This document shows positions 10,128 through 29,730 of a stretch of DNA of 32,033 nucleotides, piece by piece. The first letter of the stretch is position 1, and each line of letters opens with the position of its first letter. The translations under genes and the position numbers were made by a program. Source of the stretch: a virus; IMG/VR virus record IMGVR_UViG_3300035162_001655, positions 1 to 32,033 of that record. The stretch is one strand, 5' to 3'. The notes under the pieces were generated by a model that did not search any database, had not been told where the DNA came from, and saw only the letters and a program-made list of their open reading frames with translations.

Positions 10128-10826
10128 TTAACTAAAACTAGTGCCAAATTCTGCTGTAGGTTGTGCTGACGCTGTAAACGTACTAGAACCGTTATCAAAA
10201 TCAACAGTCATATTATGAATCAAGTATTCTAATCCAGTACTAAATGATTCTGGGTTAAATAGTCCTAAGTCTAGTTCGTTAACATAAGATTGTATTCCAT
10301 CCATTTTACGGATATCAAGATTATGTACTAAACCTGTCATATTACCTACGTTAGTAATATCATTAGTTTGTGCGTTCAGTGTTGCTGTTAGTTTAGGTGC
10401 TGTATCAGTTTGGACTGACGTAACACTTGACACTGTAATCGTTGTTCCGCTTAGATTTGTAGTAGTTGTTCCGCCACCTGCAATAGTTAATGCATTACTG
10501 TTTGAATCTAGTGTAAGGTTATTATTATCGGCAAACACTTGTACGCTAGGTAAGCCTGTTGCTGTACTATTAATTGTAACAGTGTTAGCATCAGAAGCAA
10601 GTGTTATTGCTGACCCAGCTACAATCTTTTTAAACTGTAGCTCTGCTAAACTTATTTGCGCAAAAATACCCTCTCCACTAGCTCCTAGATTAGCTCCAGT
10701 TGTTTGCTCCGGCGATCTTGCACTAAGTTCTGAAAAGTTGTTATTAACTTTTACAAACGCTTCACGAAGATCATCACCTGTGCCGTCGTTTGCAATAGTT
10801 CCGATGTTGATAGTTTGTATTGCCAT
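10128..10826 (-). CDS. Structural protein with shared N-terminal fibre module
   Basis: This 232-residue protein begins MAIQTINIGTIANDGTGDDL, then REAFVKVNNNFSEL, the clearest form of the N-terminal module also found at 15294-15572 and 15572-22789. The middle is a Thr/Ser/Asn-rich beta region (NTVTINSTAT, TTTTNLSGTTITVSS) typical of trimeric fibres. The C-terminal third is less repetitive (LDIRKMDGIQSYVNELDLGLF). It follows the protease gene and precedes the Ig-like fibre. GGAG and a GATAAATA box 17 nt upstream of the start mark it as the head of a late transcript. A short tail fibre or fibre connector is likely. Confidence 0.78.
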   Translation of the reverse strand: MAIQTINIGTIANDGTGDDLREAFVKVNNNFSELSARSPEQTTGANLGASGEGIFAQISLAELQFKKIVAGSAITLASDANTVTINSTATGLPSVQVFADNNNLTLDSNSNALTIAGGGTTTTNLSGTTITVSSVTSVQTDTAPKLTATLNAQTNDITNVGNMTGLVHNLDIRKMDGIQSYVNELDLGLFNPESFSTGLEYLIHNMTVDFDNGSSTFTASAQPTAEFGTSFS

Positions 10827-10843
10827 GTAAGTCTCCTATACTA

Positions 10844-10851
10844 TATTTATC
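10844..10851 (-). promoter_or_regulatory. Late-type promoter box GATAAATA
   Basis: GATAAATA on the minus strand overlaps the last codons of the protease gene and lies 17 nt before ATG 10826. The leader contains GGAG. Same form as the box at 7149-7156. Confidence 0.58.
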
Positions 10852-13354
10852 GCTTCTTCATTGCTACAATATTACTAGTAAATGGCTTTTGTTGATTATA
10901 TTTGTTAAACAACATTCTATTTTCAGCACCACATATATCTGTAGTATCACCGTAGTTAGTAAGATTATTTTCGTCTTTCAAAATTGCCTTTGAAGCATTG
11001 TTCATTTTATTTTGTAGTTGTGCAGGTGTAAGTTCTGGACTTGCTTGTAAGTACAATGCTCCTACTCCGCATACTTGTGGACTTGCCATACTTGTTCCGC
11101 TAATATTAGTTTGCCTATAGTTAGCATTGTCAAAATAACTTGGCGCCCCAAATTTGTTTGTTGTACTAGTTGCACTAACAATATTCTCACCAGCCGCAAA
11201 TATATTTACTGCTGGACCTGTTGTACTAAACCCTGTTTTCCTTTCTACATTACCTGATTCATCTTGTGGTGTGCTGTCCATACACCCTACCATAAATGCA
11301 TTATCACTAAAAGGTGAACTACCTCTATGGTAGCTTCCATTTGCTCCACTACTTGAAAATACAATATTATTATAATCTAAGCCAGTGCTTAGATCTGCTT
11401 TAAAACTGTTGTTACCTGCCGCAATGCAAATGTGTACACCTGCCGCAATACATTCGTTTACGTCTGTATCTACACTAGATACTCTTACAGGAAATCTATA
11501 ATTGCCACTTGCATAGTATGGATAATAACCATAGGTATCTCTCATATGAGTTATTCCACCAAAGCTACCATCATTACCGCTATTATAAGTTGTACCTCTG
11601 TACACAATAGTTGTAATGTTATTAAAGGTATTACCAATGCTACTGCTATATCCCCAACTTGCGTTTACAATAGTAGGACGTTTTACTCCTGTAATTGGAT
11701 CTGCTTCTTTGTTGATGTGCCATTGTTTAATACAATCATATATGTTTGATATACTAATACCAGTGCCACTATCACCACTGCCTTCTAATCCTGCTACTTT
11801 GACAGAAAAGATTCTTGCTTTTGTACCCCAACCAAAGTTCTTACCTACTGCTGTTCCGCCACAATGTGTTCCGTGTCCGTCATAGTCTCTATAATGATTT
11901 GCACTCTGTGTAAAACTTATTCCGCTTTCGTCTGCCCAATTAATTTCATGTACTCTATTTGCACCGGACCATGCTAGATAGTTTTCGTTACCTTGATCGT
12001 TTCCTTTGAAGATACTTTTCAATGTTGTAAAACTTGGCTTGCTTAATACAGGCATAAAGTATTTTTTGAAAAGTTGATAACCTTGTGGATTATTTGTTCT
12101 AATACCAGCCGGTGTACGCATGTCGTCTGTCCATTCTGGTGCAAGAGTTCCGCCACTCCAAAACTCGCTCATATCCCACATACCCCAGTTAAGCAAATAC
12201 ATGTATTCCTTGTAAGCAAGTTCTGCCTGTTCTGTGTTAGTTGCCCAACTAGGTGCATAATCACTTGGGTCAAATTTACTCGCGGCAATAGCTTCTGCCA
12301 TTGCAAGATGTAGTTCAGTTGTTTTCCAACTATCTCCAACAGCATTTGTAGCAAGCCAATTTAATCCTGTTGCACTACCTGGAGTTGCGCCTGGCAATCC
12401 AAATAAATGTATTGTATGAAACAAGTGTTCCATAACTTCTTCAATTTCACTATCTTGTGTAGTTGGTTGAGGCCCGCTTGCATTATTATACCATACCATA
12501 TCGTTAGCCACATGTGAGTCTAAAAATGTTTGATATCCTGCATAACTTGGAATGCCCGCATCAGTTAGCCAGTTAGGTGAATAACTTGAACCTGCACTGT
12601 TACCAATTCTTTGTGCAGTTGGCATACCTGCATGGAATGTACCAGCATCACCTTTTAGTGTTGCTATTAGATTTTTTTGGTGTGTAAGATTAATATGTGT
12701 GCCTGTAGGATCAATTAATAGTTTTACAACTTGTGCAACTTTTTTACTAAAGTCATCTGGCACTGCTGACTGTCCGCCTACTGCACCTGCCGGAACAAGT
12801 TTTAATCCGTGAACTGTGACTTCTCTATCAAACACTGCACCATTTGTGCTGTTAGCATCGAGTGTTGTACTAACATACTCTGCTGTATCGGCCATGTAAA
12901 ATTCAGGGTGACCACATTCCAGCCCACTATCTTGTATAACAACATCAACACCTTGTCCGTCCATTGCAAACGTACGGTTAGTGTTTGTTGAGTTACTTGC
13001 ATATTGTTGTTCAAAGAAACTGTGTCTAATTTTACCCCAGTCTCGATAATCTCCGCTATCGGCACTTGACTTATTAAAATTTGCTGTCTGTACTGATTGA
13101 ATACCAATTTCAATATTTGGATTTTGATCAGGTGGAAGATCTACATCTAAAACTCTACTGTCGTTTTTAAGAGTATCTACTTCGTCAGTAGTCAACATAT
13201 AATGTGTATTTCTTTGTGAACCTAGTCTTGCGTCTGCTATAGTAACAGTACGTCCTGGAATATCTCCGGCGCCTGTTTCTGCAATCATCTCTCGATTAAA
13301 TGCATCATAGTCGACACCTTCTTTAAGAGTTACGATATACTCTTTTTCACTCAT
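10847..13354 (-). CDS. Subtilisin-like (S8) serine protease with large insertion
   Basis: This 835-residue protein holds a complete subtilase triad: Asp142 in VVIQDSGLECGHPEF, His494 in DYDGHGTHCGGTAVG and Ser755 in GTSMASPQVCG, with the oxyanion Asn648 in IAAGNNSF. Residues 5-75 (YIVTLKEGVDYDAF, HYMLTTDEVDTL, VLDVD) resemble an I9-type propeptide, so it may self-process. There is no signal peptide. The Asp-His spacing is about 350 residues against about 30 in subtilisin; the extra part (about 165-470) has its own aromatic-rich helical character. Its place among fibre genes suggests a virion or tail-associated protease that trims fibre proteins or acts on the host surface. Start ATG with AAGGA upstream. 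Confidence 0.92.
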   Translation of the reverse strand: MSEKEYIVTLKEGVDYDAFNREMIAETGAGDIPGRTVTIADARLGSQRNTHYMLTTDEVDTLKNDSRVLDVDLPPDQNPNIEIGIQSVQTANFNKSSADSGDYRDWGKIRHSFFEQQYASNSTNTNRTFAMDGQGVDVVIQDSGLECGHPEFYMADTAEYVSTTLDANSTNGAVFDREVTVHGLKLVPAGAVGGQSAVPDDFSKKVAQVVKLLIDPTGTHINLTHQKNLIATLKGDAGTFHAGMPTAQRIGNSAGSSYSPNWLTDAGIPSYAGYQTFLDSHVANDMVWYNNASGPQPTTQDSEIEEVMEHLFHTIHLFGLPGATPGSATGLNWLATNAVGDSWKTTELHLAMAEAIAASKFDPSDYAPSWATNTEQAELAYKEYMYLLNWGMWDMSEFWSGGTLAPEWTDDMRTPAGIRTNNPQGYQLFKKYFMPVLSKPSFTTLKSIFKGNDQGNENYLAWSGANRVHEINWADESGISFTQSANHYRDYDGHGTHCGGTAVGKNFGWGTKARIFSVKVAGLEGSGDSGTGISISNIYDCIKQWHINKEADPITGVKRPTIVNASWGYSSSIGNTFNNITTIVYRGTTYNSGNDGSFGGITHMRDTYGYYPYYASGNYRFPVRVSSVDTDVNECIAAGVHICIAAGNNSFKADLSTGLDYNNIVFSSSGANGSYHRGSSPFSDNAFMVGCMDSTPQDESGNVERKTGFSTTGPAVNIFAAGENIVSATSTTNKFGAPSYFDNANYRQTNISGTSMASPQVCGVGALYLQASPELTPAQLQNKMNNASKAILKDENNLTNYGDTTDICGAENRMLFNKYNQQKPFTSNIVAMKKR

Positions 13355-13366
13355 CAGTTAAATCCT

Positions 13367-15283
13367 TTAATGTAAGTCAACCCAACCACCGTTCGCATAA
13401 CCTTGGAACTTGTTTGTAGTTGTGTTATATATGGTATCCCCGTTTACTGCTGTAAGAGCGTTACGCTCAGTAGTTGTAAACGATGCTAATCTAAATGGAC
13501 TCTGTGTTACCTTAACAGCATCTTCAGCAACAAGCTCAATTGAGCCTGCACTAGTAATCTGCGGAGTACCTGTACCTGTACCTTCAAATGTTTCTGCTTG
13601 TAATGATCCTGTTACGATCATATCGTTTTGTACTGTAAGATCGCTACTTAATACCATTGCTGGCGTTACTGTAATTGCACTAGAATCGTCTGTATCGATT
13701 GTGCTAGAACTAAATGTAAAGTTCCCAACTGATTCACCACCTGCCGCGTTAGTCCAAATGCCTCCAACGTATTTTATTACTTGATTTGCCAACGGAGTGT
13801 TAATACTTACATCAGACAGTGTAGTGATACTAGTTGATGTTAAGTTTGCCAAGTAGCCTGAGTCATTGGTAAATGAACTTACTGTTGTTGGTGCTCCTGT
13901 TAAGTCACCGTATGCACCTGTAGTTGCTACTGTTGCTAGTGTAGGTGTGCCTGTAACATTTGAGTATTGTACTCCTGTAATATTTGCACCACCGCCGTAG
14001 AAGTTAGTTGCATAAGCGTTTAAATAAACATTGTTGCTTGCGCCTAAGTTATATGTACTAGTTGCAAAAGGTGTAACATTACCAAAGCTAACACTATCAC
14101 TTACTTCAGAGCCGCCTGATAATACTTGACTAAGTGTAAGTCCTGTTAAACTTGCACCACTACCAACAAATGATGTACCTTTTATATCGCCTGCTACTGT
14201 TAATTTGTGTGTAGGAGCAACATCAAACATACCAATGCGTTGCGTACCTGTATCAATATACATTGCTGACACTGTGCCACCCGATGGCTTAATTTTAAAG
14301 TTCATGTCCTGCTCAGTAACACTGTTTTCAAAAATTACTGCGTTGTCAATATGTATTTTTAAGTTATTGTTAGTACCAACTACAATACCCATATCACTAT
14401 TAAATGTTACTGAACCGTTTTGTGTGTAATTTCCGCTAGTACTAACAGCATCAGTAATTCCGTATCCTGATAATGTTGTAGGAGTGCCAACTAGTGAACT
14501 CCATTCGCTGTTAAACAATGCAGGTTGATTGGTTAAGTTAGCGTAGTCTAAAAAGTATGGGCTATCAAATCCGTCAAGTGTATCTGCATTTAATCCGCCG
14601 CCACCTGAAGTAGCATCATTAGCAGGTGCCCACTTGGTACCGTCCCATTTTAAAACTTGTCCCGGAGTGGGCGGAGTTGATTGAGTGTCAACATCATCTA
14701 AGTCGCTAATGTCATCTACAATACTAGGTTTGTTTGTTAAGTTATTATAACTACCTGTTGTCGCTACTGTAGCTAAACTAGGTGTTCCAACAATTTCACT
14801 ATAATTAACAAAGCTATTAACCCAAGCACCGGCATTGTCTTGTCCAGCTGTAGTATTCCATTTTAATAGTTGGGTATTTGCTAACCCTGTTAACTCAGTG
14901 GTAATGCCGCTACCACCACCACTGCCACTAGCAGTTGAAGCAATAGTAATTGTTCCATTTAAGTCATCATATGTGATGTCGATGTTAGAGCCTTCTCTAA
15001 GTACAGCGTTAACTCTGTCATCAACTCTTTCGTTTGTAAAATACTGATTAGTGCCTTCAGGTAAGTCTGTTGTGCTTGCGGCTACTGTGGGCTTATCTGC
15101 TAAGTCATTCCAACTTCCACTAAACGGATTATAACTAACCCCAGCAAGTGTAAGTCCTGTTGCAGAAATATTTCCTGCTCCGGTTATACCCGATCCTGTT
15201 AAGTCTAAATTATCACCTATTGGTAATTCTTTTAGTTTGTTGCTATCGTCTCTATCAACAATTAATGGTATTCTATTTGCCAT
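13367..15283 (-). CDS. Repeat-rich tail fibre protein
   Basis: This 638-residue protein contains scattered copies of a fibre repeat of the form GTPxLATVATTGxYxxLTxxP: VGTPSLATVATTGSYNNLTN in the first third, TGTPTLATVATTGAYGDLTG in the second half, and looser copies GSWNDLADKPTV and YANLTNQPALF. It starts MANRIPLIVDRDDSNKLKELP and ends with GDTIYNTTTNKFQGYANGGW, a domain common at the ends of phage fibre proteins. Composition is Thr/Ser/Gly/Asn-rich with very few charged residues, as in trimeric beta-structured fibres. Receptor specificity cannot be inferred. It is preceded by AAGGA and lies between the giant fibre group and the protease. Confidence 0.82.
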   Translation of the reverse strand: MANRIPLIVDRDDSNKLKELPIGDNLDLTGSGITGAGNISATGLTLAGVSYNPFSGSWNDLADKPTVAASTTDLPEGTNQYFTNERVDDRVNAVLREGSNIDITYDDLNGTITIASTASGSGGGSGITTELTGLANTQLLKWNTTAGQDNAGAWVNSFVNYSEIVGTPSLATVATTGSYNNLTNKPSIVDDISDLDDVDTQSTPPTPGQVLKWDGTKWAPANDATSGGGGLNADTLDGFDSPYFLDYANLTNQPALFNSEWSSLVGTPTTLSGYGITDAVSTSGNYTQNGSVTFNSDMGIVVGTNNNLKIHIDNAVIFENSVTEQDMNFKIKPSGGTVSAMYIDTGTQRIGMFDVAPTHKLTVAGDIKGTSFVGSGASLTGLTLSQVLSGGSEVSDSVSFGNVTPFATSTYNLGASNNVYLNAYATNFYGGGANITGVQYSNVTGTPTLATVATTGAYGDLTGAPTTVSSFTNDSGYLANLTSTSITTLSDVSINTPLANQVIKYVGGIWTNAAGGESVGNFTFSSSTIDTDDSSAITVTPAMVLSSDLTVQNDMIVTGSLQAETFEGTGTGTPQITSAGSIELVAEDAVKVTQSPFRLASFTTTERNALTAVNGDTIYNTTTNKFQGYANGGWVDLH

Positions 15284-15293
15284 GTCTTTATCC

Positions 15294-15572
15294 TTATAAT
15301 GCCGCTATACGTACTTTGAATGCCGCAAAGTCTGCACTTGCCGCTACTTCAGTTTTTAATGTTGCTAAACTTACATACCCTGGTATAATGCCATTTACAG
15401 CATCTACAAGTAATGTACTGTCATCAGCAAATACACTTCCTACTACATCTCTATTTGTATTGGTTACATTTAGTTCTGCAAAGTTATCGTTGATTTTTTT
15501 AAACGCCGCTCTTAAAGTGTCGCCGTCACCCTTGTTAGCACTTGTGCCAATGTTTACTGTTTGAATAGCCAT
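15294..15572 (-). CDS. Small structural protein consisting mostly of the shared N-terminal module
   Basis: This 92-residue protein starts MAIQTVNIGTSANKGDGDTL, then RAAFKKINDNFAELNV. It is almost only the module that begins the 232- and 2405-residue proteins, plus about 50 residues (DDSTLLVDAVNGIIPGYVSL, then helical AASADFAAFKVRIAAL). It may cap or nucleate the same trimeric base, or be a truncated fibre paralogue. Its start overlaps the giant fibre stop (TAATG), so the two are made together. Confidence 0.75.
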   Translation of the reverse strand: MAIQTVNIGTSANKGDGDTLRAAFKKINDNFAELNVTNTNRDVVGSVFADDSTLLVDAVNGIIPGYVSLATLKTEVAASADFAAFKVRIAAL

Positions 15573-18500
15573 TATACTCTCCCTACCACAACTTCGACTG
15601 TGCCGCGATCGTCAGTAGTTTTATTAGCTACTGCCTTTCCAATTACAGTTCCAACTTTGGGGTCATTGTCTACAATAGCATACCCTGGTATAGCACTTGT
15701 AACAAGCAAGTCTCCTTTATGTACTTTGCCTAGTACCTTAACAGGTACACGCCCTTGTAGTGCAATAGTTCCTATAAACTCTCCTTCAAGTTCTGAATTC
15801 ATTAAGTATGCAGGATGAGCTGAAATAACACCAGCTATTCTTCTATCACCCTTAGTGTGTGCTAATGTAACTTCTTGTTCGCCACCAAACACAACAACTG
15901 TGCCTTCTTCGTACTCAGCGTCTGCTAAGTAATTCTCTGCCAAGTCAGCATATTTTGCTTGTGATGAAATACTCGATACTGCGTTAGCATATACTGTACC
16001 AAACTTTAATGCACTAGTACCTAAGTCGTAGCCGCCATCGGAACTTGGAACTACTTGTGATTGCTTAAACACTACTGCCGCAACGTTATTATTTGCAACA
16101 ATAGAAACTTCGCCTGCACTACTAAATCCTGTACCTGCTCCAATACCAATACCTGTACTTGAAGTACTCTTTTCACCTGGTGCTTCAATAAAGCTAGTAT
16201 ACATCCAGTCTGCCGCCACCCTCGGTGAGTTCAGTGTAGCATCACTTGGATCTCCGTAACTACTATTCTGTTGGAAGAACGATGCTGTAATACTAGTGTC
16301 GCCTATTTGTAATGTACCTGGTAACGTAGTAGTTGTATTACTTGGAATTGTACCAACTGTGTTAAACACTGTAGCACCACCCGGTGTCTTCATTGTCATT
16401 GTTAAGTTAGTTTGATCTAAAACATCGTAGTTATCAAGTTTAAATTTCTGTGCATCAACACTTCCATCTGCGCCTGTTTTAATAATTCTATCAGCAACAC
16501 CTGTTGTAGTAAATGAACCACCTGTGTTAACAATAGTACTAAACGCAATGGCACTTGCATCGCCGCTACTTGATGCGCTTCTGCCATACACTGTGTTTTG
16601 TGCTACATCCGGTAAGTCGGCAAAGTCAACTGCACTTGCGGCTAGTGTTACCCAACCGTCTGTTACACTAAAGTCACCACTATCAAAACTTGCTAGTCCT
16701 AAATCACTTTGTGCAATACCTGTTGCGTTTGCTCTTGCACTTGCGGCAGTCATTGCTAGTTTACTTTGGGTAATCGCCGCACTAGCATTGATATCCGAGT
16801 TAATAATAACACCACTAGTAATTGCTGTTGTTGCAACGTTGTCTGTAACACTTAAAGTTACATCACCTTGTAATGTTGCGTTGTCGTAACTTGTACCATC
16901 CCATACTAGTAAGTCATTAGTGTTTCTGTTACCAATGTCTGCACCAATTGCTTCTGCACCAAATGGTGTTCTGGCATCTACATAAGATTTTGTAGACAAG
17001 TCTTGTGCATTAGTAGGATCAGCTGAGTTATAAATCTTATTACTACCAGCATTAAGGTTACCCGTTAATGGTGTAGTACCATCTCTTGCAAGTGCTCCTG
17101 GTCCAATAGTTCCGGTATTAATAATGACACCGTCTCTATCAAAGTGTAGTCGTTTCTCAATAAACTTTTCAGTTGCAAATTCTGTTGGAACTGCCGCCGG
17201 GTCACCATCTGACATTGTATCATCATTACTAAACTCTTGTATTCTAACACCCTGTCTAAATCCAAGTCCGTCTAAGTTACTAATGGCAATACTTGCCGCG
17301 AATGTAACTGTACCAGTTCCTTGGTCTACACTAAAGAATTTACCAACTCTAAAGAAACCATCCTGGTCTGTACTTGCAAAGAATACTCTGCCCTTGCCAC
17401 GTTCGTTAACTTCTGCATCTTGGTTAGCACTAAGAGTTGACTGACCGTAGATAATACTTGGATAGTTAGTAGTGTTAAATCCACCTGTACCAATTTTATC
17501 AAAGTCGTGTCCGTTAGCTCTTAGAGTTGAAATACCAACTGTAATGGTACCAGCTTCGTTATCTTGTAATGACAATGAAATTGTTCTAGTTGCGGCTGGA
17601 CTAAATCTTAGATCTGCACCAATACCTGTATCACCAAACAATCCAGCATTACTATTAATGTTACTCGATGCTAAGTCAGCTATGTTAACTGTAGCATATG
17701 AGCCTCTGCTTGTATAGTTTGAAACAACATGTGTCTTACCTGCAAAGGAGAAGATCATATCGTCATTAGCAATACGTGCAATTTGCGGTGCTGTTAGTGT
17801 ATCAATAGCAATTACATCGTCACCTACAGTAGCACCCATTGTGGTACCTGTGCCAGCATATGTATTCAATGCTGATTCTGTAGTTCTAAGTGTTAGATTT
17901 AAGTGAGTAAACGGTGAGTCTAATACTACCTGGAATCTATCTGATGCTAGTGCAGTACCGTCTGCATCTTGGTTATTAAAACTAATTGTTCTATAAACTG
18001 AATCTTCATTCTCTGTAAATATTAATGCTGTTGAAGGTCTTGTTGCTGTAACACCACTCAATCCGTCCAGCAAGTGGTTCTTGTTCATTCTAACAACAAC
18101 GTATGCTGATGCATCACTTGCTACTGTTGGATTGTGTACACCTGTGATAGCTGTTTCTAATCCTGTGCTTCCTGCAACACTACATCTGTATATAGGGCTG
18201 TTAGCACCCTTACGTCCTGTTGGTCCTGTTGCGCCTGTGTATCCACCAATGTTACTTGTAATTGGTGCAACAATACTTGTTGCTGTTACTTCGTAAGTTG
18301 TAACACCTGCCGCTGTATATACGTCAATTAAACTGTTTGGATAAGGCATGTAATCACAGTCATATAAGAAGATACTAAACGCACCTGCCGCATGTCCAAA
18401 CGTACCAAATCCAAATGTGTTATTGCTATCGTTAAACACTTTAGCAGGTTGTTGCATATTTCTTAGTGTTGCAATATCATCAACAGTTTCGTTTGGATCT

Positions 18501-21500
18501 GATCCTGCCGCAACTAAACCAAAGTTACCGTTTGCGTTAGAACAGTTAAGTGCTCTAATCTCTGAACCGTTGTTACTAAAGAACGCGGTATGGTTGTAAT
18601 AAGTAAATGTCGATACTTGCTCTGATAGTGCCGCGTTGTTACAAAATAATCCATAACCTAAGTCGTTAACTTGAGTATAGTCGTTTGCCAACATACTTCT
18701 GTTACCAGCAGTTTGAACATAAATTGCTTGAGGGAAACTTGTTGCTTGATAACCAAGGCCTTCATTTGACAATTTGTTAATTAATAGTTTAGCTGTACCA
18801 GCCGCTCCATCATATTCTGAAATAGCATCAACTTGATAACGGATACCGTTAATAAAGAATGGCGCAGGAGTTTGTGGTTTTCTAATTCTTAAACCGGTGC
18901 CTGCATCTGATTCTACATTAAGTGTGTAGTTGTCGTCCTTACTTGTAATCTTAGTTTCTAAGTTACCAGCAAATCCATCAATGTACATACCACCTTTAAA
19001 GCCTTGTTTGTTTGTACTTCTTGAGAACGATCCACATACTTGTGTGTATGGTGATTTGATTAGAACCTGTCCTGCAGGGTCAAGTACTTGCGCAAATCCA
19101 CCGTGTCCTTGGAATGACATGTTTGCAAGTCTTGTTGCATCATTCATTAAGAACACATCCATTTGATCGTTTGTTTTCTTAGCACTTGCTACATCCATTG
19201 GATCAGTTAGATAGTGATAACCGTAATTTGTTGTTTGTTTAATGTGCCAAGCACCCGATGCAATATCGTTCAAGTTTGGAAGAACATCTATAGTTAGTGT
19301 AACTTCAAAGTCACTTCCGCCATCAGGATTACTAATAAGTCCCATTGCACCATTGTCTGTGTAGAACCAAGCGCCGTCCCATGCAGTAGCAGTAATGTTA
19401 TCTGCTGGAGTAACTGTAATTACACCACCTGCTGTGTTTGTTCCTGTTATAGCAACTACTTGTGCTGTTGCTAAGTCAGAGCCAGTTACATCTGTAATTT
19501 TTAGATTGTCTAGTAACTTGTCTCTGTAAAAATATGTTGTTGCCCAAGGTGATTGTGAAATCCGTTTTGCTGGTCTAATTTGGCAACGTCTAAAGTCCGA
19601 ACCTTTAATCGAAACGTTAGCAGGAACTTTTAACGGATAGTCTTCATAGTAAATGCCTGTCTCAACATGTACTGTAATTTGCTTCTCAGCAGTTGGGTTG
19701 CCGTACTCTAAGTCTTCACCAATTCTAAATTCAGTTGGCTCAACTAATACAACTTGTACTCTATCGTATGCTACGCCACCTAAGTCTACTCCGCTTTGGT
19801 ATCTTACAATACGTCCTCTAGCACCCGATGTTTTACCAACAACAATTTTACCAGGTAAAATATCTACGTTAGTGTTAACACCTTGGTCAGTACTATCATT
19901 GCCTGTTCCGTTACCAAAGTCAACATTGTATGTACTACCTTCAACTAGTGTGTAGTTGTTTCTAGCAGTAAATCCATTTTCTAAAATATCAAGTATAATA
20001 TCAAACTTAGCATTTAGAGCATCTTTGACTTGTGTACTAACAGTTGTAATGGACGAGTCTAACCACTGTGGAATTAAAGTTGTGTAATCTGATGGATAAA
20101 CTTTCGTTCCAAATTCACATTCAAACACAATGCTATCTAGTACAACAACATCACCTGCACCTAATCCGTGTGCAGTAGTAGTTGTAATAACACCTTTACC
20201 TGTTGTGTGGTTATAATTAAAACCACTTATGTTATATGCAGTACCACCAAATGTAACAGTACCACCACTAACATATGTGTGTGCATAAGGATTTGTTCCT
20301 ACTGCTACTTGTAATTGGGTTGATGTTAAATTATCAGTCTCTACTGCAAAACGTCTACTTGCTGTTAACAAATCTGTATTACTAACAACTGCATTTACAA
20401 TAGACTTAGCTTTAGTCATTGCCGCTCTAGTTTCTTGTCCTTGACTAATACGTGCTCTAGCGCCCGAAGTTGTACTAAAATAGCGTGTAGCGGCTTGTAT
20501 AGCATTATAGTTTGAGTTAGTACCGTTGCCGATATCAATAATCATACCATCAACAATTAAGCCAACATCTCTTTCACAAGTATTATTAGACTTAACTGGT
20601 TGCTCAGGAGGAACTAATACAGTTAGTCCGTTTGTAATAACGTTTGTAATTGTAGTTGTTAGCGTACTTGCTCTGTTTGCAACATCGTTAACGCCCGTGC
20701 CTGATTCTACTGTTAATCCAGTTGTAGTATTTTGTGTAAATGTCTCTGGGTAAATTTTAGCAGTAGTAACGCCATTGTACGTACAGTTAACATTAATAGC
20801 CGCAAGTGTTACTACATTGCCTGCTGATAATCCGTGATTGGTTGTAGTTGTAATACTTGCAATGCCTGTTGCTTCATTATATGTAAATCCGCTTACTGCT
20901 AATACACTAGCATCTGCTTTGGTTACAGTACCGCCGCTAATATATACGTTTGCGCGACTACTGCGACCAATGTAAAATTCAAATACAGTTGCGGCCAAGT
21001 TATTACTATCAACTACAAATGTAGTTTGCTTTGATGTGTATGCTGAGTTTGCTAGTACATTATTAACTACTAAGTCTCTTGCAAATTCAATTGCACCGTT
21101 AGTTTGTGCAATTTGATCAGCAGTACCTAAGCCTGTACCAGATGGACCTACAGCATTTTGATTTCCTGCTAGATAACTAGCGGCCATTCTACGTGTTTCT
21201 AAGTTGCCGCCTCTTGATAAATCGTTAATCCATGCATCTACAATATAGCCTACATCACGCTTACATTTTTCACTACTGTAATCAAAGTTATTCCATATAC
21301 CTGAGCCACCAGCTGTTCCAACATTATGGTTGATCCAGTACGTAACTTCTTCTTGAATAAATTCTTTGTTCTGAAACAAAATTGCTTCGGCGTTAGGATT
21401 GGAAACACTTGATGAGTCATAGCTAAGATTTGGAAACGTATCGTTTACATAATCAAGAACTGCTTTTTGTATAAACTTTTTATTCTTTCTTAGATACGTT

Positions 21501-22789
21501 TGCGCACCGTAAGCCGCTGTGTTAGGAGTTGTTGTGCCTATTGCTTTAACTAGTGCAACACCTGCACCATTGTCGTATGTAATTGTTTGCTTGTATGCGC
21601 CGGGCTCAATTGGGGCGCTTTCAATAACTTCTTCAGCTTTTAATAGAGCGCCTTTTAAACTACCATATGCATAACTTAGCCCACGTCCTTCTAGTCCTAC
21701 TGGAGTACGTGTTTGTGTATCGTCACCTTGCATAGTAACAAATAAATCTTCAGTGGATGCATAAGAATTGTTATCAACATATAGTTTTGATGCGGCTTGC
21801 TTGTCGCTAATATTACCTGTGTCTGTTCCTGCTAAGTCACCTGGGTGATCATGCAAGTACAATGCACCAGTCATGTCATCGCCTTGGCGTCTTACTGCCG
21901 AACTTCTTGGTAGTGTTTCGTTGTCTCTGTAGAATCCGTATAGTGAATTATCGTATGCAGTATCTACTACAAGGTCTGTTCCTACAACTGCTGTTGTTGC
22001 ACCTAGTCCAATGTTAACCTTTACACGAGTAACGTCATTGTTATTTTGTGACTCTTGTTTAGTTGTGTGTATACTAAGTTGATCTTCTGTTACCCATCTT
22101 AGATAGTAGTCTGTATTATTAGTTAATCCGTTTGGTGGAGTATCTGTTGTAGAGTACTTCCACTTAGTTCCGTTAATACTCCAGTCATAACCATGATCAG
22201 TAATTACTAAGTTGCCGCCTCTGTATTCAATAATAGTTCTAGTGTATTCGTTTGCGTTAGCAGGCTCAGTTCTAGCATACACTGGCTTTGTTGGCTCAGT
22301 TGTTGTATTTGGTGCATAATACTGGTCTTGGAATTTTTTATCTGTTACAATATCGTTAATGGTAATTGAACTACCATGTGTGGTATTAAATTCAGCAATA
22401 GCCGCTGGAGATGTTGCAATCTTACCAATAGCATAAACCTGGTTACCACTTACTGGTCCACCAAAGATCGGTGAAGTATCTGCGTTGATATTTGCACCTG
22501 TGTTTGTAATAGTAATACTTGATGCACTGGAGTTGTCAATGCTAATACCATTTCCCGCTGATAGCGTTTTTGATATAATTTCTGTACCAGTTGTGTTACC
22601 AATTAATACACCAAGTGGTGTAATGCCTGTTGGTGTATCGTTGAGTGCGGTAAAACTAATAGTTCCGCCTTGTCCAAATACAGCATATAGCTCTGTAAAG
22701 TTTTCGTTCGCTTTACGGAATGCTTCACGGATACTATCACCTGTTCCGTCATTACCCTCTACACCTAAATAAATATCATTCTTTGCCAT
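15572..22789 (-). CDS. Giant tail fibre protein (2405 residues)
   Basis: By far the largest gene. The N-terminus carries the shared module NDGTGDSIREAFRKANENF (about 13-31). Residues about 330-390 (MTGALYLHDHP, ASKLYVDNN, YAYGSLKGALLKAEE) resemble fibre segments of T4-like cyanophages. A tandem duplication of about 229 residues starts at Cys509 and Cys738. A short collagen-like run GYTGATGPTGRKGAN lies near 1515-1530. Near 1936 is the LTGNLNAGSNKI...STKSYVDAR motif typical of fibre shafts. The last 130 residues (YADLAENYLAD, IALQGRVPVKVLGKV, GDLLVTSAIPGYAI) form a conserved end domain of many marine fibres. It is probably the main long, trimeric adsorption fibre. One intact frame, no frameshift seen. 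Confidence 0.88.
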   Translation of the reverse strand: MAKNDIYLGVEGNDGTGDSIREAFRKANENFTELYAVFGQGGTISFTALNDTPTGITPLGVLIGNTTGTEIISKTLSAGNGISIDNSSASSITITNTGANINADTSPIFGGPVSGNQVYAIGKIATSPAAIAEFNTTHGSSITINDIVTDKKFQDQYYAPNTTTEPTKPVYARTEPANANEYTRTIIEYRGGNLVITDHGYDWSINGTKWKYSTTDTPPNGLTNNTDYYLRWVTEDQLSIHTTKQESQNNNDVTRVKVNIGLGATTAVVGTDLVVDTAYDNSLYGFYRDNETLPRSSAVRRQGDDMTGALYLHDHPGDLAGTDTGNISDKQAASKLYVDNNSYASTEDLFVTMQGDDTQTRTPVGLEGRGLSYAYGSLKGALLKAEEVIESAPIEPGAYKQTITYDNGAGVALVKAIGTTTPNTAAYGAQTYLRKNKKFIQKAVLDYVNDTFPNLSYDSSSVSNPNAEAILFQNKEFIQEEVTYWINHNVGTAGGSGIWNNFDYSSEKCKRDVGYIVDAWINDLSRGGNLETRRMAASYLAGNQNAVGPSGTGLGTADQIAQTNGAIEFARDLVVNNVLANSAYTSKQTTFVVDSNNLAATVFEFYIGRSSRANVYISGGTVTKADASVLAVSGFTYNEATGIASITTTTNHGLSAGNVVTLAAINVNCTYNGVTTAKIYPETFTQNTTTGLTVESGTGVNDVANRASTLTTTITNVITNGLTVLVPPEQPVKSNNTCERDVGLIVDGMIIDIGNGTNSNYNAIQAATRYFSTTSGARARISQGQETRAAMTKAKSIVNAVVSNTDLLTASRRFAVETDNLTSTQLQVAVGTNPYAHTYVSGGTVTFGGTAYNISGFNYNHTTGKGVITTTTAHGLGAGDVVVLDSIVFECEFGTKVYPSDYTTLIPQWLDSSITTVSTQVKDALNAKFDIILDILENGFTARNNYTLVEGSTYNVDFGNGTGNDSTDQGVNTNVDILPGKIVVGKTSGARGRIVRYQSGVDLGGVAYDRVQVVLVEPTEFRIGEDLEYGNPTAEKQITVHVETGIYYEDYPLKVPANVSIKGSDFRRCQIRPAKRISQSPWATTYFYRDKLLDNLKITDVTGSDLATAQVVAITGTNTAGGVITVTPADNITATAWDGAWFYTDNGAMGLISNPDGGSDFEVTLTIDVLPNLNDIASGAWHIKQTTNYGYHYLTDPMDVASAKKTNDQMDVFLMNDATRLANMSFQGHGGFAQVLDPAGQVLIKSPYTQVCGSFSRSTNKQGFKGGMYIDGFAGNLETKITSKDDNYTLNVESDAGTGLRIRKPQTPAPFFINGIRYQVDAISEYDGAAGTAKLLINKLSNEGLGYQATSFPQAIYVQTAGNRSMLANDYTQVNDLGYGLFCNNAALSEQVSTFTYYNHTAFFSNNGSEIRALNCSNANGNFGLVAAGSDPNETVDDIATLRNMQQPAKVFNDSNNTFGFGTFGHAAGAFSIFLYDCDYMPYPNSLIDVYTAAGVTTYEVTATSIVAPITSNIGGYTGATGPTGRKGANSPIYRCSVAGSTGLETAITGVHNPTVASDASAYVVVRMNKNHLLDGLSGVTATRPSTALIFTENEDSVYRTISFNNQDADGTALASDRFQVVLDSPFTHLNLTLRTTESALNTYAGTGTTMGATVGDDVIAIDTLTAPQIARIANDDMIFSFAGKTHVVSNYTSRGSYATVNIADLASSNINSNAGLFGDTGIGADLRFSPAATRTISLSLQDNEAGTITVGISTLRANGHDFDKIGTGGFNTTNYPSIIYGQSTLSANQDAEVNERGKGRVFFASTDQDGFFRVGKFFSVDQGTGTVTFAASIAISNLDGLGFRQGVRIQEFSNDDTMSDGDPAAVPTEFATEKFIEKRLHFDRDGVIINTGTIGPGALARDGTTPLTGNLNAGSNKIYNSADPTNAQDLSTKSYVDARTPFGAEAIGADIGNRNTNDLLVWDGTSYDNATLQGDVTLSVTDNVATTAITSGVIINSDINASAAITQSKLAMTAASARANATGIAQSDLGLASFDSGDFSVTDGWVTLAASAVDFADLPDVAQNTVYGRSASSSGDASAIAFSTIVNTGGSFTTTGVADRIIKTGADGSVDAQKFKLDNYDVLDQTNLTMTMKTPGGATVFNTVGTIPSNTTTTLPGTLQIGDTSITASFFQQNSSYGDPSDATLNSPRVAADWMYTSFIEAPGEKSTSSTGIGIGAGTGFSSAGEVSIVANNNVAAVVFKQSQVVPSSDGGYDLGTSALKFGTVYANAVSSISSQAKYADLAENYLADAEYEEGTVVVFGGEQEVTLAHTKGDRRIAGVISAHPAYLMNSELEGEFIGTIALQGRVPVKVLGKVHKGDLLVTSAIPGYAIVDNDPKVGTVIGKAVANKTTDDRGTVEVVVGRV
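19960..21270 (-). repeat. Tandem duplicated domain inside the giant fibre
   Basis: Two copies about 229 residues (687 nt) apart. Copy 1 starts at CKRDVGYIVDAW (Cys509, 21265) and copy 2 at CERDVGLIVDGM (Cys738, 20578). Both continue with an A..Y/RF helix, then VDSNNL/VETDNL, ISGGTVT/VSGGTVT, a TTTTNHGLSAG/TTTTAHGLGAG element, and KIYPETFT/KVYPSDYT. Conservation is at protein level and well diverged, so this is an old duplication. The right-hand limit is approximate. Confidence 0.85.
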
Positions 22790-23164: not shown

Positions 23165-23172
23165 AATAAATA
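23165..23172 (+). promoter_or_regulatory. Late-type promoter box AATAAATA
   Basis: AATAAATA on the plus strand, 5 nt before the ATG at 23178 of the only plus-strand gene. It lies 23 bp from the oppositely directed box of iscA. Start of transcription would fall at or next to the ATG. Confidence 0.5.
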
Positions 23173-23177
23173 CAATT

Positions 23178-23465
23178 ATGTTCAAAAGAATTGAAAAAGA
23201 AGTAAGATTTTACGTGCGCAAAAGTAAGACGGGCAAGACCCATCCGTACAAGCGAATACGTAGTTATGCAGTATTTGAGTGTGACGAGTGTCACGAAGAG
23301 TTTCAGCGAGAAAAAGGCAAAGTAGACCATAAACGTCTTGACGACTATTATGTCCACGTTTGCCCTAATTGTGATCCTAAAAGGTTCGCTCAACGCAAAG
23401 GTGTTGAGCAACGTAAGAAACTTAATATGCCTGCTGGCTTAGATATTCCTATTAGCGATCTTTAA
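23178..23465 (+). CDS. Zinc-ribbon-like small basic protein
   Basis: The only plus-strand gene, 95 residues. Two CxxC pairs, Cys35/Cys38 (CDECHEEF) and Cys62/Cys65 (CPNCDPKRF), are 24 residues apart and suggest a zinc ribbon or treble-clef knuckle; His51 could also be near the metal. The N-terminus is strongly basic (RKSKTGKTHPYKRIR), so nucleic-acid binding is plausible. No HNH catalytic pattern is clear, though small HNH-like nucleases share this Cys layout. No Shine-Dalgarno is visible, and the promoter box ends 5 nt before ATG, so the message may be leaderless. Its stop overlaps the convergent membrane gene by 4 nt. Confidence 0.78.
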   Translation: MFKRIEKEVRFYVRKSKTGKTHPYKRIRSYAVFECDECHEEFQREKGKVDHKRLDDYYVHVCPNCDPKRFAQRKGVEQRKKLNMPAGLDIPISDL

Positions 23466-26280: not shown

Positions 26281-26730
26281 TTAGCCCTCATAGATCGCCG
26301 AATTCGCGCCATGCTCTGCACATTCTGCACGTACACAATAGCAACGATTATTACTTTTTTCACGTATTAGTTTGTCTGCAAAGTTAAATGCATGTTCTGC
26401 AAACTTCTCAGCACCAACACCGTCCATAACAACAATCTCTGCTAGGTCAAGTTCTTGCAGTTCCATAAACTTATCTAAGTATGGATCGTTCTTGTCAATT
26501 GCTGTCTTGTGATCAAAGTTATCTTCGAGCCATGCCTTCAACGGCTTTAGTCCGCCAAAGTCTACTGCCCAGTTCTTTTGATCTAGTTCTGTACAGCCAA
26601 ATGTAAATGTAAATGCTAAACTGTACCCGTGTAGTAGATGACAGTGTGAATGATCTGCATTAGGCTGACGGAATACTGCCGACAAGCCGATGTTGTGCCC
26701 GTAATGTTTTGTGCTGTAATATTTTCCCAT
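26281..26730 (-). CDS. queD: 6-pyruvoyl-tetrahydropterin / 6-carboxy-tetrahydropterin synthase-like (QueD)
   Basis: This 149-residue T-fold enzyme would convert dihydroneopterin triphosphate to 6-carboxy-tetrahydropterin, the second step toward queuosine and other 7-deazaguanines. The active-site block is HSHCHLLHGYSLAF (27-40) with catalytic Cys30, then DFGGLKPLKAWLEDNFDHKT. In E. coli QueD the metal motif is HGH; here the second His is Tyr36, a change I recall in a marine/alphaproteobacterial subgroup. GANSAIY near the end keeps the substrate-binding loop region. No other queuosine gene is visible, so the product may feed host or off-window enzymes. First gene after the promoter at 26808-26836; GGAG at 6-nt spacing. 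Confidence 0.85.
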   Translation of the reverse strand: MGKYYSTKHYGHNIGLSAVFRQPNADHSHCHLLHGYSLAFTFTFGCTELDQKNWAVDFGGLKPLKAWLEDNFDHKTAIDKNDPYLDKFMELQELDLAEIVVMDGVGAEKFAEHAFNFADKLIREKSNNRCYCVRAECAEHGANSAIYEG

Positions 26731-27388: not shown

Positions 27389-27868
27389 TTAGCGTGGATC
27401 TATTTGTAGGTAAATGTTATCGAATGTTTGTGCTTTTTCTTGTTGGAAGATTAAGTAGTTGCATACAAATTCGCCAGTCATACTAACACGATATTCTCCG
27501 CCACTGTTCATGCCTTCCGGAACAGCCATACGCCATCCATTCTCTACTCTATCACCAGGTGCTGTATTTTGTATGTAACGTTTTGTAAACTTGGTTAACT
27601 TGTGTGAATGACTTCCATCTACAGAGTGTGCTATACCATAAGCGGCTGTGCTGTTACACTCGTGTTTCTTTGATCCAACCATATAGAACTCTATGTCGGT
27701 TGCCGCATCAATCGGATTGTTTACTATATTAATATGGGTGTCTTGGAATACAAATGCATTACTAAAACTCATGTACGCGATGCCTAATGATATAATAGTA
27801 ACTAAGCTAATACCGCTAATTACATTTAACATTGCTTTGACAAGTATGTACCGGTTTTCAGATGTCAT
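27389..27868 (-). CDS. Membrane-anchored protein with one N-terminal helix
   Basis: Start taken at ATG 27866-27868 (159 residues), 11 nt inside the upstream gene and 8 nt after AAGGA; a start 45 nt earlier has less support. Residues about 12-33 (LNVISGISLVTIISLGIAYMSF) form one membrane helix. The rest, about 125 residues, should face the periplasm or cytoplasm and contains two Cys and a beta-rich end GEYRVSMTGEFVCNYLIFQQ. No signal cleavage site is evident. The topology is like several phage envelope or lysis proteins, but I recognise no family. Coupled to the two-helix gene upstream. Confidence 0.65.
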   Translation of the reverse strand: MTSENRYILVKAMLNVISGISLVTIISLGIAYMSFSNAFVFQDTHINIVNNPIDAATDIEFYMVGSKKHECNSTAAYGIAHSVDGSHSHKLTKFTKRYIQNTAPGDRVENGWRMAVPEGMNSGGEYRVSMTGEFVCNYLIFQQEKAQTFDNIYLQIDPR

Positions 27869-28172
27869 CTTTAAAGTCCTTAAGGTCGGAATTAATTGAT
27901 CGAAATTCTTCACGAACTTCTAACAAGTTCTTACTAGCTCTATTTAGCGTATATACTAAATGTTTAATAGTAAAAATAGTCCAAAACCACCAAGTAACTG
28001 CGGTAACAGCAAACAGTCCAATGCCGATAAAAAAGGCCGCACTGAAGTCTATGATACCAAACGATATGCAGATAGCTGATATAATTAGAAATACTGTAGG
28101 GGCGACTCTAGCATACAAGTCCCAACGTTCTACTTGTTTTTCAACTCTTTTTGTTTCTTCTATAATATGCAC
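27858..28172 (-). CDS. Two-helix membrane protein, conserved in T4-like marine phages
   Basis: This 104-residue protein starts at GTG 28170-28172 with GGAG 7 nt upstream. Layout: charged N-terminus EETKRVEKQVERWDLY, helix 1 VAPTVFLIISAICISFGIID, helix 2 AFFIGIGLFAVTAVTWWFWTI, then a long amphipathic C-terminal helix (LNRASKNLLEVREEF...). I associate the pattern ETKRVEK..ERWDLYA and FA.TA..WWFWTI..I with a conserved protein of T4-like cyanophages of unknown function. Two membrane spans and a cytosolic coiled coil fit a membrane-bound assembly or lysis partner, unproven. Confidence 0.75.
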   Translation of the reverse strand: MHIIEETKRVEKQVERWDLYARVAPTVFLIISAICISFGIIDFSAAFFIGIGLFAVTAVTWWFWTIFTIKHLVYTLNRASKNLLEVREEFRSINSDLKDFKDDI

Positions 28173-28227: not shown

Positions 28228-28241
28228 CAGGTGTTAACCTG
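28228..28241 (-). terminator. Weak possible terminator hairpin
   Basis: CAGGTTAACACCTG forms a 5-bp stem with a 4-nt loop overlapping the stop of the fibre paralogue, followed on the minus strand by CTTTTAC. The stem is short and the U-run only four long, so this is marginal. Confidence 0.3.
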
Positions 28242-28653
28242 AGATAGCACCAAACGAGCGCCATTCACCTGGAGTGCCTGTACGAATACAGATCCACCCT
28301 AGATTACTTTCTGGCTTAGGAGTGTCGTTCCAAATTATATCGCCTATATTATAAAGTCCGATGGTAGGAACTGCATTTCCAACTGTGAATGTTTTGCCTT
28401 GAAACTTAACTGGCCCACTAGTTTCTAGTGAAATACCGTTAGTTACTGATGAAACACCAATGCCTACACCGCCTTCAAAGACTGTGTCTGATGTTCCTTG
28501 TATTCTTAAAGAGCCACTGCCGTCAATAACAAGTCTTGATGAGTTATCATCTCCAGCAACTCTATGAATTGATAGTAGTGCATTGCCTAGTTCATTTAGC
28601 CCGTCTCTAATTGCGCCAACGTTGTCAGGACTAATATTAATTAAGGATGTCAT
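28234..28653 (-). CDS. Tail-fibre-like protein, short paralogue
   Basis: Start ATG 28651-28653 overlaps the upstream stop (ATGA); 139 residues. N-terminal helix NVGAIRDGLNELGNALLSIH suggests a trimerising coiled coil. It is followed by a beta repeat (SRLVIDGSGSLRIQG, VGIGVSSVTNG) and a C-terminal module GDIIWNDTPKPESNLGWICI, RTGTPGEWRSFGAISG. The last module recurs at the end of the 355-residue neighbour, so the two are paralogues and probably assemble in the same fibre. No enzymatic motif. Confidence 0.75.
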   Translation of the reverse strand: MTSLINISPDNVGAIRDGLNELGNALLSIHRVAGDDNSSRLVIDGSGSLRIQGTSDTVFEGGVGIGVSSVTNGISLETSGPVKFQGKTFTVGNAVPTIGLYNIGDIIWNDTPKPESNLGWICIRTGTPGEWRSFGAISG

Positions 28654-29717
28654 GCTTCTATTACTCCGAATCTTTTCCATACGCCTGGGGTTCCGCTTTC
28701 AATGCATACCCAGCCTATGTAACCACCTGCGGTTACATTTGAATTATAAACTATGTCGCCGTTGTTAAAAGTACCGTCAGTTGGTTCAGTTAGTCCAACT
28801 GATAATTTTTTATCTGCAAATCTAATTGCGCCTGCAACTTGAAGGTCAACATCATCACCTGGGTATTGTACCTTAATGCCTAACGTGCCCTTAACTTCAA
28901 CTCCGCCTTGCTCTTTAATAACAATACGTTCTTTGTTGTCTGTTAACAAACTCATCTTACTAGTAGTATATGTACCTACTCTAACATGATCAAACTCAGG
29001 ATCAACAATAAACTCTGCTTCGTTGCTTGCTACACTAAATTGTGCGGCAGGTGCTTCAGCACCAATAGCAAATCTCATTGTTCCGCTGTCGTAGGTAACA
29101 AACTCATCAATTGATAAGTCGCCGTTTGTGCGTAAATTAGTTAATGTGCCCACTGTTCGTAAGCTACTGTTTTGTACAGTAACACCTAGTGAGTCTGCGC
29201 TTAGTACTGGAATATTGTCAATTTCAATAACTGCATTTCTATGCAAGTCTAATGTATTGCTGATATAGAATCTATCATTACGCCATACAATTTGCTTAGT
29301 TGCTTGTCCAGGCTGTCTCCATTGCAAGCCCATCATATCTAAGCTACCTGCATCAGGATGGAAGTCAATTGACTGTGTCACCTTCTGCGTTGATACAACT
29401 TCGTCAACGTGCATTCTACTAGCAGTAACTTCACCTTGGATGGTTAAGTTTCCGCTTACACTTAGGTCGCCTACAATACTATCAATGTCAGCATTGCCAA
29501 CAGTAATCATATCATCTTCAACTAGTAAACTAGTCCTAGAAGCAAGGTCTGTAACCCCTGTGCTCCTAAGTAGCGTAATCTTACCACCGTGTATAGCACT
29601 ACCACTAATGCTGTTAATTGTAGCAGGAGGCAACTCTTGCTGTTCTGTATTCGCGATAGTCTCGATCGCAGTACTTAAACGTGCGAGACCTTGTCTAATG
29701 TTATCTAATTGGCTCAT
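28650..29717 (-). CDS. Tail-fibre-like protein with coiled-coil start
   Basis: 355 residues from ATG 29715-29717; a TTG at 29732 would add five residues. It starts with coiled-coil MSQLDNIRQGLARLSTAIET, then a shaft of beta repeats (GDLSVSGNLTIQGEVTASRM, DNIPVLSADSLGVTVQNSSL) typical of phage long-fibre shafts, and ends with GDIVYNSNVTAGGYIGWVCI, ESGTPGVWKRFGVIEA, shared with the 139-residue paralogue. The promoter box GATAAATA lies only 5 nt before ATG 29717 and no Shine-Dalgarno is suitably placed for it. It may attach to the tail beside the main fibre. Confidence 0.78.
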   Translation of the reverse strand: MSQLDNIRQGLARLSTAIETIANTEQQELPPATINSISGSAIHGGKITLLRSTGVTDLASRTSLLVEDDMITVGNADIDSIVGDLSVSGNLTIQGEVTASRMHVDEVVSTQKVTQSIDFHPDAGSLDMMGLQWRQPGQATKQIVWRNDRFYISNTLDLHRNAVIEIDNIPVLSADSLGVTVQNSSLRTVGTLTNLRTNGDLSIDEFVTYDSGTMRFAIGAEAPAAQFSVASNEAEFIVDPEFDHVRVGTYTTSKMSLLTDNKERIVIKEQGGVEVKGTLGIKVQYPGDDVDLQVAGAIRFADKKLSVGLTEPTDGTFNNGDIVYNSNVTAGGYIGWVCIESGTPGVWKRFGVIEA

Positions 29718-29722
29718 GTAAG

Positions 29723-29730
29723 TATTTATC
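29723..29730 (-). promoter_or_regulatory. Late-type promoter box GATAAATA
   Basis: GATAAATA on the minus strand overlapping the stop of the 436-residue gene and ending 5 nt before the ATG at 29717. Predicted leaderless start for the fibre gene. Confidence 0.55.

Follow-up and report, generated by a model that had tools for sequence, protein, structure and literature searches.

A conserved tandem pair of fibre-like paralogues in a marine T4-type phage, with a late-promoter-like element 5 nt before the first start codon

In the window analysed here, the whole 32,033-base stretch of the IMG/VR virus record IMGVR_UViG_3300035162_001655, two adjacent genes on the minus strand encode fibre-like proteins. 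The long gene (28650..29717; ATG at 29717, stop at 28650-28652) encodes a protein of 355 amino acids with the C-terminal end GWVCIESGTPGVWKRFGVIEA, and the short gene (28234..28653; ATG at 28653, stop at 28234-28236) a protein of 139 amino acids with the end GWICIRTGTPGEWRSFGAISG; the stop codon of the former and the start codon of the latter overlap in ATGA (28650..28653, minus strand). Both open reading frames, which also have profile matches and homologs, lie where the preliminary description of this DNA had placed them, and the end strings quoted there are exact, with two further residues following each. The long gene is preceded by the late-promoter-like sequence GATAAATA (29730-29723, minus strand), with the ATG exactly 5 nt downstream. 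The window is that of a marine T4-type phage; it contains, according to profile matches, T4-type genes for a clamp loader, an exonuclease and a polymerase, and, at 54.6% identity, the closest named clamp loader comes from the Pseudomonas jumbo phages of the PA5oct group. Positions 10,128-22,789 contain genes that match profiles of tail fibres or baseplate connectors, and those with tail-fibre profiles run in the same direction as the pair, approximately 5-18 kb away. A fibre-like protein of 2405 amino acids (15572-22789, minus strand) and a protein of 232 amino acids (10128-10826, minus strand) have in common an NDGTGDxxREAF N-terminus, which, in the latter, coincides with baseplate-connector profiles.

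Each protein of the pair can be divided into three regions. In the long protein, an N-terminal helix region (residues 1-28; 29634..29717) is followed by a shaft delineated from profiles and the structural model (residues 29-301; 28815..29633) and an end domain (residues 302-355; 28653..28814); in the short protein, the corresponding regions are residues 1-34 (28552..28653), a short shaft taken from the model (residues 35-86; 28396..28551) and an end domain (residues 87-139; 28237..28395), all on the minus strand. The folds considered here are AlphaFold2 monomer models. The helices predicted at residues 3-23 of the long protein and 9-33 of the short one are similar in length, so the difference in length that had been envisaged for the N-terminal coiled-coil starts is not borne out; it is the shaft that differs in length. 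Overall confidence in the long model is weak (pLDDT 70.9, pTM 0.27), and its residues 23-70 are unreliable (pLDDT <50), whereas the short model reaches a pLDDT of 83.4, with lower confidence at residues 31-60. The end domain, with block-mean pLDDT values of 88-95 (long) and 90-96 (short), is confidently predicted to fold as a compact monomer, and its limits are also apparent in the alignment of tips. T4 fibritin, the neck whisker protein, contains a long segmented coiled coil; by contrast, only a single helix of 21 or 25 residues is predicted here, and the long model is largely of low confidence.

When used as a query, the long protein matches the short one with E = 1.7e-17 (39% identity, query residues 260-354), far beyond chance, in agreement with the original recognition of two adjacent paralogues with a common C-terminal end. 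The ends are homologous, as proposed, but the common part is not limited to 40 residues: the alignment of both families extends it to approximately 95-100 residues, from the last portion of the shaft to the C-terminus, and an IRxGLxxL motif is found near the N-terminus of both proteins. By its sequence, the short protein looks like the long one minus most of the shaft. Tail-fibre profiles, along with matches to predicted viral proteins named tail fibre, corroborate the assignment of the paralogues to fibres. When the last 100 residues were used for an unrooted tree, the 15 long copies that belong to the 355-residue type fell into one group (support 0.98), with their short partners outside, and the short copies form no firmly supported group of their own; in all 6 pairs tried, leave-out profiles assigned each copy to its own type, long or short. 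Given that the long copies of divergent records group together to the exclusion of the short ones, the duplication is old, and the pair probably arose from it in tandem. In two relatives with a single copy (L034 and L035), the body is of the long type, and the ends score 29 and 21 bits better, respectively, with the short model; the short-type end in these could be either ancestral or the product of a body-end fusion via a deletion between the copies, and both records suggest an exchange or loss of ends between the copies. In kind, this finding is mostly ordinary, namely, tandem fibre-like paralogues with a widespread unnamed end domain.

The C-terminal 50 residues match phrog_21471 (1.3e-12 for the short protein and 1e-15 for the long one), the strongest end-domain profile, which has no known function annotated; the strongest profiles of known function are those of tail fibres. 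The profile search that had been suggested for the end domain has identified a phage fibre end domain of the phrog_21471 type. Seven residues (P, G, C, G, P, G, W), a single Cys and a single Trp included, are invariant in 25 of 25 aligned tips, a pattern defined in this analysis and not by a curator, in an alignment that leaves out 'Rudgehvirus' and RN05-S, the latter lacking the Cys; within this set, the conserved Cys and Trp of a compact tip are confirmed. Of 11 named proteins inspected, 9 have the domain at the protein end, and in the remaining two, SPO1 gp18.1 (residues 428-474 of 638) and 'Rudgehvirus', it is internal, so that the tip, as the domain had been described, is the predominant but not the sole position. 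Phages of Bacillus, Vibrio, Pseudomonas, Arthrobacter, Rhizobium, Serratia and others also carry the domain, as do, when searched with one narrow pattern, 16 loci of bacterial genome contigs; judging from these similarities, it is a known but unnamed phage fibre domain (SPO1 gp18.1, Vc1, pf16). The fibre pair has the GDIxxN...GWxC...GxPGxW domain in common with SPO1 gp18.1, Vibrio phage Vc1, pf16 gp214, Xenomorph gp17 and Moonbeam. Those proteins consist of 447-638 residues, and at least two of them (pf16 gp214 and Vc1) carry pectate-lyase-type descriptions, whereas here the domain terminates both members of a short/long pair, the 139-residue protein and its long paralogue. SPO1 gp18.1 is a putative tail fibre; mutations in it, in gp18.3 and in gp16.2 overcome gtaB resistance, a form of receptor resistance, according to a passage that does not state the position within gp18.1 (PMC10356755). 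Residues 80-238 of the long protein match phrog_6002 (head and packaging, virion structural), and the middle region resembles the marine T4-type families phrog_6002 and phrog_30158 (S-CAM7 hypothetical, S-H9-2 virion structural protein); in S-CAM7, this module lies within a 779-residue protein, whereas here it makes up the shaft between the helix and the end domain.

Pfam searches with both proteins and all 21 members of alignment A4 gave nothing near a usable score, sequence and profile searches of the PDB with both proteins gave nothing significant, and a Foldseek search of the PDB with the short model gave no match at E <= 0.001. Within a library of predicted viral proteins, the short model has 21 matches at E <= 0.001, including Vc1, CampHawk, SPO1 gp18.1 and Xenomorph, several of which are described as pectate-lyase-type or fibre proteins. 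The best VIA-align match of both models, phage Phi92 gp150 (6e0v; Z 4.6, rmsd 2.2, 47 residues), is in the tool's warning range, and a match of the long model to 8ond_B (E = 8e-4), with 288 columns at an rmsd of 17.2, was not trusted. The weak Foldseek list for the short model, where 22 of the 50 entries listed are chitinases, chitin deacetylases or isolated chitin-binding domains, all with weak scores, led us to pursue a relationship with CBM5/12. By eye, GD, an aromatic residue, P and W follow in a similar order in the end domain, but the likeness is not significant, with Foldseek E values of 1.7 and worse. With VIA-align, two chitin deacetylase chains aligned across 38 residues with Z of 2.1-2.3; PF02839 (CBM5/12) had no match above the cut-off in the fibre proteins; and hhalign of the end domain against a profile of the PF02839 domain of E. 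coli ChiA and eight fetched relatives gave probabilities of 0.3-8% (P 0.004-0.14, not significant), with or without ChiA. A search of four bacterial genomes with PF02839 yielded 0 of 4.

Scanning with only the short protein retrieved no relative. An alignment scan yielded 51 IMG/VR records, and the counts that follow refer to the stretches fetched from these. A long gene (~355 residues) followed by a short one (128-143) is present in 27 of the 51, one of the long copies being cut by the contig end; two medium copies (~270-290 residues) are found in 4 (L044-L047), and one copy in 20, three of which (L059-L061) are larger, different proteins. When 20 of the 51 records, which may be fragments, were searched in full, 11 had two tips and 9 had one. 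The distance from the first stop to the second ATG ranges from -8 nt (inside the first gene) to +2 nt at all 18 of the junctions inspected, 10 of which have the 4-nt ATGA overlap. The gene order, a phrog_11903 homologue, the fibre, then homologues of a 188-residue protein, QueD and a glycosyltransferase-type protein, is kept in all three records compared (G001, G006 and G011), with an additional gene in G006 and G011. Among 8 closely related sequences, all regions are under purifying selection (pN/pS 0.07-0.28); the end domain, at 0.28, exceeds every other region of the long copy, and in the short copy it has the lowest value (0.17). These differences are small; they would fit host contact for the long end and tighter constraint on the short one.

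The element in front of the pair matches a T4-type late promoter in sequence. The T4 late promoter box is located at -13 to -6. Combined with this rule, the 5-nt spacing would place the transcription start on the A of the ATG; unlike in a typical T4-type late promoter, there is no room for a leader or a Shine-Dalgarno sequence. Passages in two sources place the T4 box about one helical turn upstream of the transcription start (PMC2988020) and give NATAAATA as the T4-type late promoter motif of cyanophages (PMC2984593); GATAAATA conforms to the latter. The pair had been credited with its own late promoter: a late-promoter-like sequence does precede it, but there is one element for both genes, and its position is unusual. 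The spacing to the long-gene ATG is 5 nt in 20 of 25 relatives, counting L058 with a corrected start; L044, L045, L047, L049 and L059, a different protein, are the exceptions. GATAAATA overlaps the stop codon of the upstream gene in the window and close relatives; where that gene terminates at a greater distance (L040, L051, and G006 with a gap of 38 nt), the spacing is kept as well. ATAAATA occurs 5 and 2 times on the two strands of the window, compared to 8.2 expected on each, and the other four minus-strand sites have longer leaders downstream or are intragenic, so that both kinds are present in one genome.

We then extended this comparison to a clade set consisting of the window and seven related records (552,265 bases), requiring an ATG reading frame of at least 60 amino acids. 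Of 152 ATAAATA sites, 20 are at 5 nt and 8 at 4 nt from an ATG, with a second group from 17 nt on, whereas in the control with 20 permuted heptamers, only 21 of 5,679 sites (0.4%) are at 5 nt. The 28 sites at 4-5 nt span 15 protein families, of which that of the fibre gene, with 7 sites, is the largest; such sites are seen at 29715-29730 (minus strand) and 23165-23180 (plus strand) of the window and at loci L107, L113, L117, L067, L121 and L129. A Shine-Dalgarno-like word accompanies none of these 28 compared with 50 of the 60 sites at 14 nt or more, a contrast that is not independent evidence because the motif itself fills that place at 4-5 nt. In the SAR11 phage HTVC008M, 9 of 45 sites are at 5 nt (controls, 5 of 1,867), and the ATGs of all nine, which include loci L131, L135 and L136, are annotated starts. 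A 49-kb stretch of PA5oct has 2 of 35, and the spacing is absent from 50-kb stretches of T4 (0/29), S-CAM7 (0/16) and phiM19 (0/7), although the sites in the latter two are too few to exclude it on their own; with annotated starts only, S-CAM7 has 0 of 7 and PA5oct 1 of 12. In the T4 stretch, 14 of 15 ATG-linked sites lie at 14-40 nt, and in contigs found with S-CAM7 gp55, 76 sites lie at 14-30 nt and 2 of 143 at 5 nt, near the control (0.88%). Thus, most sites of T4 and the cyanophage-type contigs have a leader, whereas the long fibre gene here has 5 nt only. PA5oct gp262 has the 5-nt spacing without a fibre-profile match, and no such match was detected in HTVC008M at E <= 0.1.

The conserved leaderless spacing is more surprising than the fibre pair itself. 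Judging from these positions, it seems an even bet that an entire class of late promoters in this marine T4-type clade and in HTVC008M fires on the A of the ATG, so that the fibre pair and many other late genes would have leaderless mRNAs, which would set them apart from T4 and the cyanophages and would be a mode of expression unusual for this type of virus. A limited literature search found no report of a leaderless T4-type late mRNA; the paper on AR9 contains both 'leaderless' and 'late promoter' in its text (PMC5312081). Late-promoter prediction in SAR11 myophages was unsuccessful, according to one report (PMC7029224), and leaderless spacing is one possible reason. If leaderless late expression is real, abundant ocean phages would require changes in gene finding, in promoter prediction and in host-takeover models. 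A bolder extension, namely that a phage-encoded ribosomal protein bS21 retunes host ribosomes for leaderless mRNAs, we consider quite improbable, although, if true, it would give phage bS21 a testable role. For E. coli ribosomes with HTVC008M bS21, an activity of roughly 5% on a GFP message has been published, and incompatibility with these ribosomes was proposed there as one explanation (PMC6375957). The gene (PF01165) is present in 7 of 21 records (G001, G003, G004, G011, G015, HTVC008M and PA5oct), of which 16 are from IMG/VR and possibly fragments; among the five complete named genomes, HTVC008M and PA5oct have it, and T4, S-CAM7 and phiM19 do not. Contigs around G001-like bS21 have 33 of 402 sites at 5 nt (control 0.47%) and those around HTVC-like bS21 4 of 168 (control 0.35%), the groups being related by descent, with only exact duplicates removed and G001 and G015 inside the former group. 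The HTVC-like contigs either speak against a general link between bS21 and leaderless genes or hold few late genes.

For the pair itself, the reading that we favor, with a probability of roughly 0.6, is that of an old tandem-duplicated fibre pair of a T4-type marine phage, that is, late structural proteins that would be coupled in expression and would carry one glycan-binding head at two reach lengths. The N-terminal helix of each protein probably serves for anchoring and trimerisation; next would come a beta shaft, extended in one copy and very short in the other; and the distal domain of ~50 residues, present in both, most likely closes the trimer and contacts a host-surface glycan. The two genes would make up one translationally coupled unit driven by a late promoter positioned at the ATG or beside it, and the virion would present one type of head at two reach lengths. 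If so, the pair illustrates a way for a phage to maintain one adhesin in two reach lengths.

A less likely alternative is that the end domain is merely a foldon-like trimerisation cap, with host binding relegated to the larger fibre proteins at ~10-23 kb. The small, compact domain with conserved Gly, Pro and Trp, its internal position in two named proteins, the presence of other fibre genes in the window and a weak match to Fibritin_C (PF07921) in one of the 21 members of A4 (E = 0.12) are compatible with such a cap. However, neither protein of the pair matches Fibritin_C, pN/pS within the long copy peaks in the tip, and L034 and L035, where a body of the long type carries an end of the short type, indicate that the ends diverged into types. 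Somewhat more doubtful still is a location on the neck or head, as a whisker or decoration, instead of the baseplate. Neither protein of the pair has the NDGTGDxxREAF-type N-terminus of the 2405- and 232-residue proteins, so a baseplate location is not required; moreover, the middle region matches the head and packaging family phrog_6002, the end matches a head-decoration profile (E = 0.003), and the PA5oct homologue of the upstream gene adjoins a head-tail adaptor gene. Against this stand the tail-fibre nature of the top end-domain profiles of known function and the lack of a fibre-profile match in the two PA5oct stretches searched.

The least probable of these alternatives is that GATAAATA is a chance AT-rich string on the upstream stop codon, the pair being read from upstream. 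Its overlap with that codon in the window and close relatives, and the number of ATAAATA sites in the window, not above expectation, would agree with chance; the persistence of the spacing where the upstream gene ends further away, and the excess at 5 nt over controls in both the clade and HTVC008M, would not. Returning to the favored duplicated pair, several observations concern its neighbourhood. After it are two small genes (27389-27913 and 27858-28172, minus strand) with hydrophobic stretches recognized by eye. Both are missing at the corresponding place in the single-fibre records G006 and G011, and G001 keeps both after its fibre pair, the second as judged by eye. Further along, a QueD-like 6-pyruvoyl-tetrahydropterin synthase gene (26281-26730, minus strand) adjoins the glycosyltransferase-type gene.
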